A DNA stretch of 35,335 nucleotides from Chthoniobacteraceae bacterium (GTDB lineage Bacteria; Verrucomicrobiota; Verrucomicrobiia; Chthoniobacterales; Chthoniobacteraceae). The position numbers were made by a program, and so were the translations under genes. Below, in pieces: positions 20,201-24,220 of the stretch. The first letter of the stretch is position 1, and every line of letters begins with the position of its first letter. The stretch covers positions 1-35,335 of the forward strand of contig CANJNZ010000047.1 in NCBI GenBank assembly GCA_947476045.1, given 5' to 3'. The notes beneath the pieces were generated by a model that ran no database searches, was not told the origin of the DNA, and worked only from the letters and a program-made list of their open reading frames with translations.

Positions 20201-21493
20201 CTACGCTGCAAAATTTTCGACGCGGAGCAAAAGCGGGGTGCCTTTCACGCAGGCGAGGGATTGGATGCGCTCGATGGCGTTGCGCACTTGTGCGTGCGTG
20301 GCGTCGTGGAGCATGAGGATCAGCTCCGCCTGTTCGCCCGCGCTCTCGGGCTGAATCATCGAACTGATCCCCACATTGCTCGCGCCGAGCGCGCCAGCGA
20401 CTTGTGCAAGCACGCCCGGTTTGTCGTCCACGGGGATTCGCAGATAATACTGGCACGTGATCGCGTCGAGCGCCTTGCAATCGCCGTAGAGGCCGTGCGG
20501 CATAAAACCGCAATCCCTTCGCGTGGCGGATGCACACGCTGCTTCCGCGAGGTCGGCGATGACTGCGCTCGCAGTCGGGTCCTGCCCCGCGCCGCGTCCG
20601 TAGAAAAGCGTCTCGCCCACGACATCTCCGTGGACGCACAGCGCGTTATAGACGCCGTTGACGCTCGCGAGCACGTGTTTCTCCGGGATGAGCGTCGGGT
20701 GCACGCGCACTTCGATTTCGCCGGAAGCGTCGGCCTTGATGATGCCGAGCAATTTAATCCGGTAGCCGAGGATTTTCGCAAAAGCGATGTCCCGCGCCGT
20801 CACGTGCTCGATGCCTTCGACAAAAACTTTCTTCGGGCAAATCCAAGTGCCGTAGGCGAGCGATGCGAGGATGATCGCTTTGTGCGCGGCATCCCAGCCA
20901 TTCACGTCGAGCGTCGGGTCCGCCTCCGCGTAGCCCTGCGCCTGCGCCTCGGCGAGCGCCTCCGCGTAATCAAGCCCCGCGTCCGTCATCCGTGTGAGGA
21001 TGTAATTGGTCGTGCCATTGATGATCCCGTGGATGCTCAGGATGTGATTGCCCACAAAGCTCTCGCGCACCGCCTTGATAATTGGAATCCCTCCCGCCAC
21101 CGCCGCCTCAAAGAACACCGGCACATTCTTCGCCGCAGCGAGATCAAAAATTTCCTTCCCGTGCTCGGCGAGCAGCGCCTTGTTGCCCGTCACCACGATT
21201 TTTCCAGCCTCGATCGCGCGCGTGATGAGCGCGAGCGGCTCGGAAATGCCGCCCATCAGCTCCACCACGATCTGCACCGCGGGGTCATCCACCACCTTCT
21301 TCCAGTCATCGGTGAAAAGAGCCGCCGGAGCATCCACCGAACGCGCCTTTTTCAAATCGCGCACCGCCACGCGCCGCACCGCCAGTTCCACGCCGAGCCG
21401 CTCCGAGAGCAAAGCGCGGTTCTTCGCCAGATTTTTAAAAACCCCCGCACCCACGGTGCCGAAGCCTGCGAGGCCGATGCCGATTTGTTTCAT
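20201..21493 (-). CDS. hom: Homoserine dehydrogenase with ACT domain
   Basis: Reduces aspartate semialdehyde to homoserine, the branch point towards threonine and methionine. 430 residues. The NAD(P) Rossmann motif is GLAGFGTVGAG (7-17); TGNKALLA (102-109) and the catalytic region GYAEADPTLDVNGWDAAHK (187-205, with Lys205) are intact. A C-terminal ACT domain begins near 354 (RIPVDDKPGVLAQVAGALG), the usual site of threonine feedback in the monofunctional long form. It heads a series with lgt, yajC and secDF. No leader peptide or riboswitch was recognised upstream, although the region beyond is repeat-rich. Confidence 0.95.
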   Translation of the reverse strand: MKQIGIGLAGFGTVGAGVFKNLAKNRALLSERLGVELAVRRVAVRDLKKARSVDAPAALFTDDWKKVVDDPAVQIVVELMGGISEPLALITRAIEAGKIVVTGNKALLAEHGKEIFDLAAAKNVPVFFEAAVAGGIPIIKAVRESFVGNHILSIHGIINGTTNYILTRMTDAGLDYAEALAEAQAQGYAEADPTLDVNGWDAAHKAIILASLAYGTWICPKKVFVEGIEHVTARDIAFAKILGYRIKLLGIIKADASGEIEVRVHPTLIPEKHVLASVNGVYNALCVHGDVVGETLFYGRGAGQDPTASAVIADLAEAACASATRRDCGFMPHGLYGDCKALDAITCQYYLRIPVDDKPGVLAQVAGALGASNVGISSMIQPESAGEQAELILMLHDATHAQVRNAIERIQSLACVKGTPLLLRVENFAA

Positions 21494-21711: not shown

Positions 21712-21723
21712 AAAAAATGCCTC

Positions 21724-21760
21724 GCACGGCGGACACGGAGTTCACAGAGAGGACCGTGCG
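21724..21760. repeat. CACGGAG-type interspersed repeat in a small hairpin
   Basis: The string GGACACGGAGTTCACAGAG is flanked by GCACGG and CCGTGC, which can pair as a 6-bp stem. It belongs to the same CACGGAG/CACAGAG repeat type seen again at 22889-22957. Confidence 0.5.
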
Positions 21761-21784
21761 TGATAGAAGAAGCGGGCCGCGAAC

Positions 21785-22031
21785 GAGTCCCGGAGGGACT
21801 GCCCGCCATTAGCCGGTGGTGATAACCACCGGATCGCGCACAAAAACGACAACGCCCCGGAGGGGCGGCGGAACGGCTGAGGCGCGACCGCGATTGCGTT
21901 CAAGGTGCGGGCGGGGTTTGGATGCGCTTGCGACGGGATATCCCGCGCCCCTGCCGGGGCGCTTGCCGTTTATGGCCATGATCCGGTGGCTGACGCCGAC
22001 CGGCTAATATCAGGCAGTCCCTCCGGGACTC
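21785..22031. repeat. 247-bp nested palindromic element with 19-bp perfect terminal inverted repeats
   Basis: The ends are GAGTCCCGGAGGGACTGCC (21785-21803) and its exact reverse complement at 22013-22031. Similarity between the arms continues inward for about 51 bp on each side (21785-21835 and 21980-22031) through ATTAGCCGGT and CCACCGGATC. Each arm folds on itself: AGTCCC-GGA-GGGACT, the perfect CCGGTGGT-GATA-ACCACCGG (21813-21832), and matching hairpins on the right. Two more hairpins lie inside: CGCCCC-GGA-GGGGCG (21853-21867) and GCGCCCC-TGCC-GGGGCGC (21945-21962). It encodes no protein. It looks like a REPIN- or MITE-like element, possibly a structured RNA; no RAYT transposase is in the window. 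Confidence 0.7.
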
Positions 22032-22150: not shown

Positions 22151-22262
22151 AAAGAGAGGGGCGGGGTTTTCGGGGGTTTTTGTTTTGGCGGGATTCTGGA
22201 TGGTCGCTTCGGTGGCGAGGCGGGGGGCGGCTTTATGAAAGCGTGAGGGATATGTAGAGCAT

Positions 22263-22871
22263 CAAGGCTCTGAAAGCGGGAGTTTTATGGCTATATGATT
22301 CCCGATTCGTGGAAATGGCATATCGCATTGGCATTCATGTCATTTGCTTCCTTCACAGTGAACAAATTTTGTGGCTCTGGGAAGGTTTCTTGCGGCATTG
22401 GGATGTTCCAAAAGCCATTTGCAACTCTCCCATTGCCACAAGTGACGTTCCCATTGCCACGAGTGACGTTCCCGTTGCCACGAGTGACGTTCCCATTGCC
22501 ACGAGTGACGTTCCCATTGCCACAAGTGACGTTCCCATTGCCACAAGTGACGTTCACATAGGCATCCTGCACTCTCACATAGGCATCCTGCACTTTCACA
22601 TTGGCATCATGCACTTTCCCATTGCCATTCTGCACTCTCTCATTGCCATCCTGCACTTTCACATAGGCATCCTGCACTTTCACATTGGCATTTCATTCCT
22701 TCCCATTGGCTCCAATTTTTCACCCAGAGCCACTTCACTCTTTCCCATTGCCATGAATGACTCTCACATTGCCTCGAATATCTCAAAATTCGGCTTTAAT
22801 GAATCTCTCGCTGCATTTAATGAGTGCGTTTCTGCGCTATATGACGCTATCTTTTGTTTTTATGATTATGT
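22263..22871. repeat. 21-bp tandem array, about 29 units in exact register
   Basis: Consensus unit CATTGCCACAAGTGACGTTC plus one base. Six near-identical units start at 22431, 22452, 22473, 22494, 22515 and 22536. Then follow units of the type CATAGGCATCCTGCACTTTC at 22557 to 22662, and increasingly diverged ones at 22683, 22704, 22725, 22746, 22767, 22788, 22809, 22830 and 22851. All 21 units from 22431 to 22871 keep exactly 21 bp. Weaker units in the same phase can be seen upstream at 22410, 22389, 22368, 22347, 22326, 22305, 22284 and 22263. The period is seven codons, so every frame gives a heptapeptide repeat. Confidence 0.9.
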
Positions 22872-22917
22872 GTTCGAGGCAAGACCTCCCTCTCTGCGTC
22901 CTCCGTGCCCTCTGTAG
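22309..22917 (+). CDS. Possible heptapeptide-repeat protein encoded by the 21-bp array
   Basis: This frame is open from 22258 and ends at a TAG at 22915-22917. It would encode up to 202 residues from a GTG at 22309, or 200 from the ATG at 22315. The product is built of 7-residue repeats: PIATSDV (about six), HIGILHF/PIAILHS (about seven), then diverged units such as PIAMNDS, HIASNIS, KFGFNES and LAAFNEC. It is the only frame on either strand that I find open across the whole array. Against coding: no Shine-Dalgarno sequence, no signal peptide, no recognised family, and the stop falls in an interspersed repeat. An alternative minus-strand frame (22683 to 22291, heptads like NGNVTCG and KVQDAYV) covers only part of the array. 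I do not know its function. Confidence 0.3.
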   Translation: MEMAYRIGIHVICFLHSEQILWLWEGFLRHWDVPKAICNSPIATSDVPIATSDVPVATSDVPIATSDVPIATSDVPIATSDVHIGILHSHIGILHFHIGIMHFPIAILHSLIAILHFHIGILHFHIGISFLPIGSNFSPRATSLFPIAMNDSHIASNISKFGFNESLAAFNECVSALYDAIFCFYDYVFEARPPSLRPPCPL

Positions 22918-22957
22918 TTCAAAAAAATGACTACCAAGGACACAAAGAGCACAGAGG
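22889..22957. repeat. Imperfect inverted repeat of CACAGAG/CTCTGTG type
   Basis: The left arm CCTCTCTGCGTCCTCCGTGC continuing to TGTAGT (22889-22918) is an imperfect reverse complement of the right arm ACTACCAAGGACACAAAGAG continuing to CACAGAGG (22930-22957), with an A-rich loop. It belongs to a repeat type seen also at 21724-21760 and abuts the end of the 21-bp array. Confidence 0.55.
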
Positions 22958-23034
22958 TGGGCATCTCCAATACGCCCGCCGCAGGAAGGTTCTCTTTCGA
23001 TGGCTATCGGTTGGGTGGAGTGGAAATCTTGGCT

Positions 23035-23064
23035 CTAACATCCGGCGTTTTCGGGGGATGTTAG
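23035..23064 (+). promoter_or_regulatory. Perfect 9-bp inverted repeat in the leader of the metallophosphoesterase gene
   Basis: CTAACATCC (23035-23043) and GGATGTTAG (23056-23064) flank a 12-nt loop with a possible inner CG-TTTT-CG pair. It lies 19 bp before the ATG at 23084 and is not followed by a T run, so it is more likely an operator or leader hairpin than a terminator. The binding factor is unknown. Confidence 0.45.
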
Positions 23065-23083
23065 GGCGCAACTTTCTCTGTTT

Positions 23084-24220
23084 ATGAATCACGAACCTTC
23101 ACTTTCCACGATGATGACTCGCCGCCGGATGCTCGCTGCGTCGGGTGGGGCGCTGGCGTGGCTGCCGTTTGCGAAATTGTCGGCAGAGGAGGTGAAGCCG
23201 GCGGGAAATGCGCCGCTTTTACCACCAAAGCCGCCGCAAGCGCCAAAGGGGCCGTATGCGGACGGGGTGCTTGTGTATGGCGAGCCGCCGTTGCCGCAGG
23301 AGGGGGCGTTCACTTTCGCGGTGTTGCCGGATACGCAGTTCTATTCGGAGAGCCATCCCGATACTTACTTGGCGCAGACGACTTGGATCGTGGAGCAGAG
23401 GGCGCAAAGGCGCATCGCGGGGGTGTTTCATCTGGGCGACATCACGAACCGCAATTCGCGTCCGCAATGGGAGAATGCGCGGCGGGCGATGAAGGTGCTG
23501 GATGAGGGGAAAATGCCCTACTGTCTGGTGACGGGGAATCACGATTACAGCGACGGGGGTTCGTGCAAGGACCGCACGACGCTCTTGAATGAGTATTTCA
23601 AGGCGGAGGAGCTGCGAAAGACGGCACACTGGGGCGGAAATTACGACAAGGAGCCGGAGCGGATGGAGAACAACTTCCAATACATGGAGGCGGCGGGGCG
23701 GAAGTTTCTGATTCTGGGGCTGGAGTTCGGCCCGCGCGAGGATGTGATCCGCTGGGCGAATGAAGTGGCCGCCGCGCACAAGGACCGGGAGATCATCCTG
23801 CTCTCGCACGCGATCATTTACCACGACGACACGCGCTACAATTGGAAGAAATTCGGCGGCAAGCAGGCAAACAATCCACATTCGTTCGCGATGGCGAAGG
23901 CGACGGGGGATGACGTGAACGACGGGGAGGAGTTGTGGGACAAGCTGGTGTCGAAGCATGAAAATTTCATCCTCACGCTGAACGGGCACGTGACGCAGGA
24001 CGGCCTTGGCCGCTACGAGAGCCAGACTCCCGCAGGCCGCGCGATTCCGCAGGTGCTGGTGAATTTCCAGATGCGCCCCAAAGGCGGCGACGGCTGGCTG
24101 CGTTTGATCGAGATGCGCCGCGACGGTTCCGCGCAGATTTACGATTTCTCCCCGACGCGGAAGCAGAGGAACGAGTCGGTGCAAAATCAATTTGCGGTGA
24201 AGTTCGCTCCGGTGGCGTAG
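23084..24220 (+). CDS. Tat-exported calcineurin-like metallophosphoesterase
   Basis: A 378-residue secreted phosphoesterase. The N-terminus has a twin-arginine motif (TRRRMLAASGG, Arg13-15) and a hydrophobic stretch, so folded export by Tat is predicted; an ATG at 23111 (MMTRRRML) is a possible alternative start. A Pro-rich segment (42-60) follows. The metal-binding motifs are in order: PDTQ (82-85), GDITN (118-122), GNHDY (151-155), SHAII (241-245) and NGHVTQD (near 303), forming the di-metal site of the calcineurin-like superfamily. The substrate is not evident; relatives hydrolyse phosphomonoesters, diesters or nucleotides. It is preceded by an inverted repeat and followed by the CotH-like gene. 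Its codon use is strongly GC-rich, like most of the window. Confidence 0.9.
   Translation: MNHEPSLSTMMTRRRMLAASGGALAWLPFAKLSAEEVKPAGNAPLLPPKPPQAPKGPYADGVLVYGEPPLPQEGAFTFAVLPDTQFYSESHPDTYLAQTTWIVEQRAQRRIAGVFHLGDITNRNSRPQWENARRAMKVLDEGKMPYCLVTGNHDYSDGGSCKDRTTLLNEYFKAEELRKTAHWGGNYDKEPERMENNFQYMEAAGRKFLILGLEFGPREDVIRWANEVAAAHKDREIILLSHAIIYHDDTRYNWKKFGGKQANNPHSFAMAKATGDDVNDGEELWDKLVSKHENFILTLNGHVTQDGLGRYESQTPAGRAIPQVLVNFQMRPKGGDGWLRLIEMRRDGSAQIYDFSPTRKQRNESVQNQFAVKFAPVA

Follow-up and report, generated by a model that had tools for sequence, protein, structure and literature searches.

The window, a stretch of 35,335 nucleotides from the genome of a Chthoniobacteraceae bacterium, contains between positions 22263 and 22871 a tandem array that raises the question of what can hold a repeat unit at exactly 21 bp while its sequence is let go. 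Ageing repeats normally hold their sequence and lose their spacing, whereas these arrays retain the spacing and let the sequence vary, at many loci per genome and in more than one class of the phylum Verrucomicrobiota. The step itself is sharply defined. Lag-21 identity was 0.61 across 22263–22871, against 0.33 or less at all other lags from 15 to 29; it rose to 0.89 in the array core and was 0.50 among the diverged units at the 3′ side (22704–22871). TRF detected 21-bp repeats at 22428–22691 without indels, and the register of the whole array is unbroken by any indel. These values bear out the exact 21-bp step reported in the preliminary description of this DNA and support its view that so strict a register is unusual and unlike the outcome of simple decay. 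The homogeneous centre and diverged edges also fit the expansion from the centre that it had proposed.

The same description had counted at least 21 and probably 29 units. In a leave-one-out profile analysis, 19 consecutive units at 22410–22808 (plus strand) were individually significant (p < 0.003 per unit, best phase 0), namely six copies of the core unit CATTGCCACRAGTGACGTTCC followed by units of the CATWGGCATCCTGCACTYTCA type; one further significant unit was detected at 22326, and all of them share one phase. The three units that close the array on the 3′ side (22809–22871, plus strand), which carry a conserved ATGA column, were marginal alone (p = 0.04–0.075) and are supported by unit-by-unit homology to another array of this genome, on contig C87. 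The last five units of the window array share 65% identity with this homologue at register 0 and no more than 50% at other shifts. At the opposite end, units 0–2 and 4–5 were indistinguishable from background and unit 6 was marginal. Because of the profile significance and the C87 homology of the last three units, about 20–23 units are supported: some 20 stand individually and three more by homology, and the full count of 29 does not hold.

The 5′ edge (22284–22409, plus strand), with its single significant unit at 22326, is the fast-diverging part of the array. Between 22263 and 22430, the window and the sister species G001 differ by 45 substitutions without a single indel (73% identity), whereas the adjoining flank (22179–22262, plus strand) is 92% identical at the orthologous site. 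Thus, the edge diverges faster than the flank and its length is unchanged. This conserved, G-rich flank, which runs from GCGGGATTCTGG to TTTATGAAAGCGTGAGG, forms the 5′ boundary. An 11-bp direct repeat, GTTTTCGGGGG, flanks the array region at 22166–22176 and 23047–23057 and could be a chance occurrence.

Upstream of the array lies a homoserine dehydrogenase gene (20201–21493, minus strand; Pfam PF00742), which anchors the ortholog: the orthologous array of G001 (L005, G001:C243) adjoins the same gene, the encoded proteins being 99% identical. This gene was found in eight species of the genus, and only two of them, the window genome and G001, have an array beside it. The core units have been replaced between these two arrays, the core units of G001 being CCAATGGCATTTGCGTCCMTC. 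The G001 array (reverse strand of L005, from about 1815 onward) seems to be cut short by MTEDYPRTLLELERRFSDEAGCRAYL, a sequence that to the eye looks like the beginning of an IS1595-like transposase. Downstream of the window array, a spacer (22872–23083, plus strand) leads to a metallophosphoesterase gene (23084–24220, plus strand; Pfam PF00149), which is not a cassette gene in the sense described below. Cassette copies have in this place a CA-rich leader and a gene for a protein of ~230 aa, as comparison with C87 reveals. Both are missing in the window, and a tblastn search of the cassette proteins against it gave zero matches and thus no remnant of a cassette gene. The window array is therefore an orphan member of the class of arrays described below, while its homologue C87 is still located 5′ of a gene. 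A dispersed repeat of ~74 bp (88% identical) lies upstream of each of the two homologous arrays, with its orientation relative to the array unchanged (window 21718–21791; L003 13678–13750).

A protein-space search with the window array matched many places in its own genome and in relatives, and the matched places turned out to be arrays with unrelated units and a shared step of 21 or 42 bp. In a 1.23-Mb sample of its own genome, which contains the window and C87 arrays known beforehand, the long intergenic tandem arrays have periods of 21, 42, or 84, and the remaining long arrays look like coding repeats, for example leucine-rich-like units of 69 and 138 bp. Three of the six strong arrays in this sample have a cassette gene beside them, and about half are without one. 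Two orphan arrays on different contigs (L068:9086–9740 and L088:18779–19371) have in common a 42-bp double unit, ~87% identical, which suggests that arrays can be copied between loci. Rfam 15 at gathering score returned nothing on the arrays of the window, L003, L110, L226, and L124. Moreover, a mobile or viral origin was rejected, given no plasmid match, no relative in IMG/VR, and no convincing PHROG or PADLOC family.

Several arrays immediately precede, on the 5′ side, a gene for an unnamed protein family of ~233 aa (MKRxxYYPSRxADQxxWLxN). Upstream sequence sufficed for 39 homologues from GTDB genomes, and in 38 of them the strongest period there was either 21 or 42. The mean best identity upstream was 0.66 and 0.69 at lags 21 and 42, compared with 0.35–0.41 at every other lag, and the downstream control gave 0.41 with no 21/42 period. 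The period was also found upstream of 13 of 15 further copies from across the phylum, including a genome of another class, although several of these 15 may duplicate GTDB loci and the two counts are not independent. Likewise, seven of nine usable copies of two other unnamed families, one of which neighbours the C87 array, show 21/42 upstream. The background frequency was 13 of 747 genes (~1–2%), cassette and neighbouring genes being counted in. An A+C-rich leader unlike the array, with a composition that would be expected of an unstructured leader, occupies the final 45 bases ahead of the start codon in 40 of 50 copies. Paralogues that are 65–81% identical within one genome carry unrelated array units.

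Searches of Pfam, NCBIfam, and PADLOC gave no match for the ~233-aa family, and the PDB contains no convincing sequence relative. Its AlphaFold2 model (pLDDT 89) consists of an N-terminal helical domain and a C-terminal fibronectin type III (FN3) domain, the latter scoring a Z of about 11 to FN3 chains. A fold search in solved structures gave no clear match for the N-terminal domain, which does not show a new fold. Common homology of the three cassette families was rejected, because the ~233-aa and DYIPN families align only weakly over their full length (hhalign probability 16%, E = 0.0016) and the MANSETS family matches neither. Further arrays (L018:1485–1813 and 1954–2664 in G014; L029:1492–1757 and 1839–2786 in G037) are positioned directly upstream of more unnamed, helical-looking proteins of 237 and 316 aa, which fall outside the three families studied; the association may thus be wider. 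In addition, L097:14713–14802 encodes, in isolation from any full gene, a C-terminal fragment of 30 aa that matches a cassette protein from the sister species at 97% identity.

Many units have internal symmetry. Dyad symmetry exceeded that of column-permuted arrays in 22 of 55 cases at p < 0.05 (~40%) and in 14 of 55 at p < 0.01; the combined excess (Fisher, 7e-17) is overstated, since some of the arrays are related. One such array is L226, whose unit is CCGAANNTTCGG with a variable 9-bp spacer. In the dyad arrays, paired columns co-change, with 51 double changes versus 20 expected. Dyads are absent from the window array and from the most homogeneous arrays, and dyad symmetry as a universal feature was consequently rejected. 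Sigma-54 promoter units were also rejected, as TTGGCAT..TGCA has the wrong GG–GC spacing when judged by eye.

We read the window array as a non-coding, helically phased DNA platform that would bind protein and regulate what lies downstream, and we give this reading a probability of roughly 0.4. The fixed period, the location, the non-coding behaviour, the rapid turnover of units, the gain or loss of whole units in pairs that can be aligned, and the dyad symmetry of ~40% of arrays without strand bias are established by the comparisons presented here. Each unit would span exactly two helical turns in its 21 bp, so that every unit would present the same face of the helix, and proteins may bind the units side by side on that face. 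The arrays usually lie directly 5′ of a small cassette gene, for the helical/FN3 protein or for one of at least two other unnamed families, with the A+C-rich leader between array and start codon; from there, the bound proteins may control the promoter downstream or organise it. The unit sequence would be swapped by unequal exchange or by slippage of whole units, and selection or a protein ruler would purge the changes that break the phase. In keeping with this, orthologous arrays that can be aligned change by substitutions and by whole units (21 and 84 bp): L116 and L117 differ inside the array by one 84-bp gap, L187 and L194 by one 21-bp gap, and L158 and L161 by none, with indels counted in the alignable pairs and many distant pairs aligning too poorly for counting. 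Against this platform, one factor could hardly recognise so many unrelated units. The array of L118 contains one-base register slips, so such slips can happen. The lack of dyads in the window and in the most homogeneous arrays, the orphan arrays, and a scan of L110 and L038 that yielded no promoter consensus also speak against it.

Direct repeats with a step of about two helical turns are familiar from plasmid iterons and partition centromeres, where they are bound side by side by an adjacently encoded initiator or adaptor. Unlike these, the arrays described here occupy many dispersed chromosomal loci and differ in unit sequence, and the Pfam assignments of the neighbours place neither a replication nor a partition gene next to the window array. 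On a broader scale, we tentatively propose, at somewhat less than even odds, that the arrays belong to an undescribed two-part chromosomal cassette of Verrucomicrobiota. It would combine an array of two-turn step, with free, rapidly replaced, and often palindromic units, with a small helical/FN3 protein, and a genome would hold many such copies whose arrays differ from one another. Such a cassette may act by DNA phasing or by orthogonal pairing of array and protein.

Because the unit sequences are so free, the strongest rival, if an unlikely one, is a neutral minisatellite governed by a mutational ruler. Replication, repair, or recombination would then make and homogenise duplications in 21-bp steps, with hot spots upstream of the multicopy cassette. 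This would account for the homogenised centre and diverged edges, for the replacement of unit sequence between sister species, and for the existence of orphan arrays and of homogeneous arrays without dyads. However, a near-universal position 5′ of one gene family across classes is unexpected for neutral repeats. In diverged arrays such as that of L226, a motif of conserved columns also persists between spacers that vary, and the dyad excess likewise argues against a purely neutral origin.

Less probable still is a repeated non-coding RNA that acts on or with the downstream protein in the manner of type III toxin–antitoxin systems. In ToxIN, CptIN, and TenpIN, a tandem-repeat RNA is encoded 5′ of the toxin gene with a Rho-independent terminator between them (PMC5086642). 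The cassettes share this gene order, with short tandem repeats directly 5′ of one small gene (the window copy being without the gene), and several paralogous cassettes per genome carry mutually different repeats, as orthogonal pairs would. Self-complementarity also lies above the null, with a mean z of about −1.6. However, the cassettes differ from these systems in their period of 21, their unrelated units, and their 7–25 units per array, and a scan of three cassettes (L110, L038, and L226) detected no Rho-independent terminator separating the array from its gene. The protein has a helical and FN3 architecture and no Pfam, NCBIfam, or PADLOC match that would mark it as a ToxN-like endoribonuclease, the toxin expected of such a system. 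Type III repeat RNAs fold into pseudoknots; nested folding of the arrays showed no difference between sense and antisense strands (p = 0.41), and GT mismatches were as frequent as AC mismatches in the dyad arrays (47 versus 44). The lack of strand bias and the parity of GT and AC therefore favour symmetry at the DNA level over RNA, and an RNA hairpin array as the general rule was rejected, the folding excess being equal on both strands.

The preliminary description had explained the constant step by coding selection for a heptapeptide-repeat protein (PIATSDV/HIGILHF). The plus-strand frame at 22258–22917 is indeed free of stops, the frame is also open in the C87 and G001 copies, and 30 arrays together hold 89 open frames against 66 expected. 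However, an open frame is unremarkable here, because repeated 21-mers are often open by chance: the window array has one such frame versus 0.78 expected in column-permuted versions (p = 0.59), and the L060b and L125 arrays have none across all six frames. The edge substitutions between the window and G001 are spread evenly over the three codon positions (16/13/16), with dN = 0.30 and dS = 0.43 at the edge (dN/dS ~0.69) and dN = 0.44 and dS = 0.46 over the whole array (~0.95). Nothing in these values points to a conserved protein, and purifying selection on a heptapeptide-repeat product is so improbable that we rejected the coding reading. Frame-breaking indels or stops in relatives had been put forward as marks of a non-coding array; the indels did not appear, the 21-bp step being kept. 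That relatives keep the step therefore indicates a DNA-level constraint or a mutational ruler rather than a protein.

Upstream repeats are known as ToxI, as TAACTGA heptamers, and as iterons, each recognised by its sequence or RNA fold. The TAACTGA heptamers are intergenic direct repeats of Beggiatoaceae, Cyanobacteria, and Bacteroidetes for which a regulatory role has been suggested (PMC4679880). They resemble the present arrays in lying upstream of genes in many sets per genome; however, a single 7-bp sequence is constant in them and the genes downstream vary, whereas the present arrays hold the period constant and leave the sequence free. The TAACTGA unit does not occur in these arrays, whose 21-bp units have other sequences. 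Similarly, the tandem repeats of archaeal Borgs are fast-evolving, independently formed, and in some cases intergenic (PMC9879509). The arrays share these traits but lie on bacterial chromosomes, and the Borg repeats are not known to be tied to a single period or gene family. A class that keeps the period alone and is tied to unnamed families in more than one class of a phylum was absent from the family libraries and literature covered, which is weak evidence given their limited coverage, and a similarly limited literature search on such arrays in Verrucomicrobiota returned nothing relevant. The arrays would thus represent either a new kind of cis-acting DNA element, read by its helical phase and not by its sequence, or a mutational ruler whose length is exactly two turns. 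Among L144–L207, many homologues start no more than ~200 bases from where their contig ends, as though assemblies broke in the arrays, and the copy numbers per genome are probably underestimated. Either reading could explain why assemblies seem to break so often at cassette genes.
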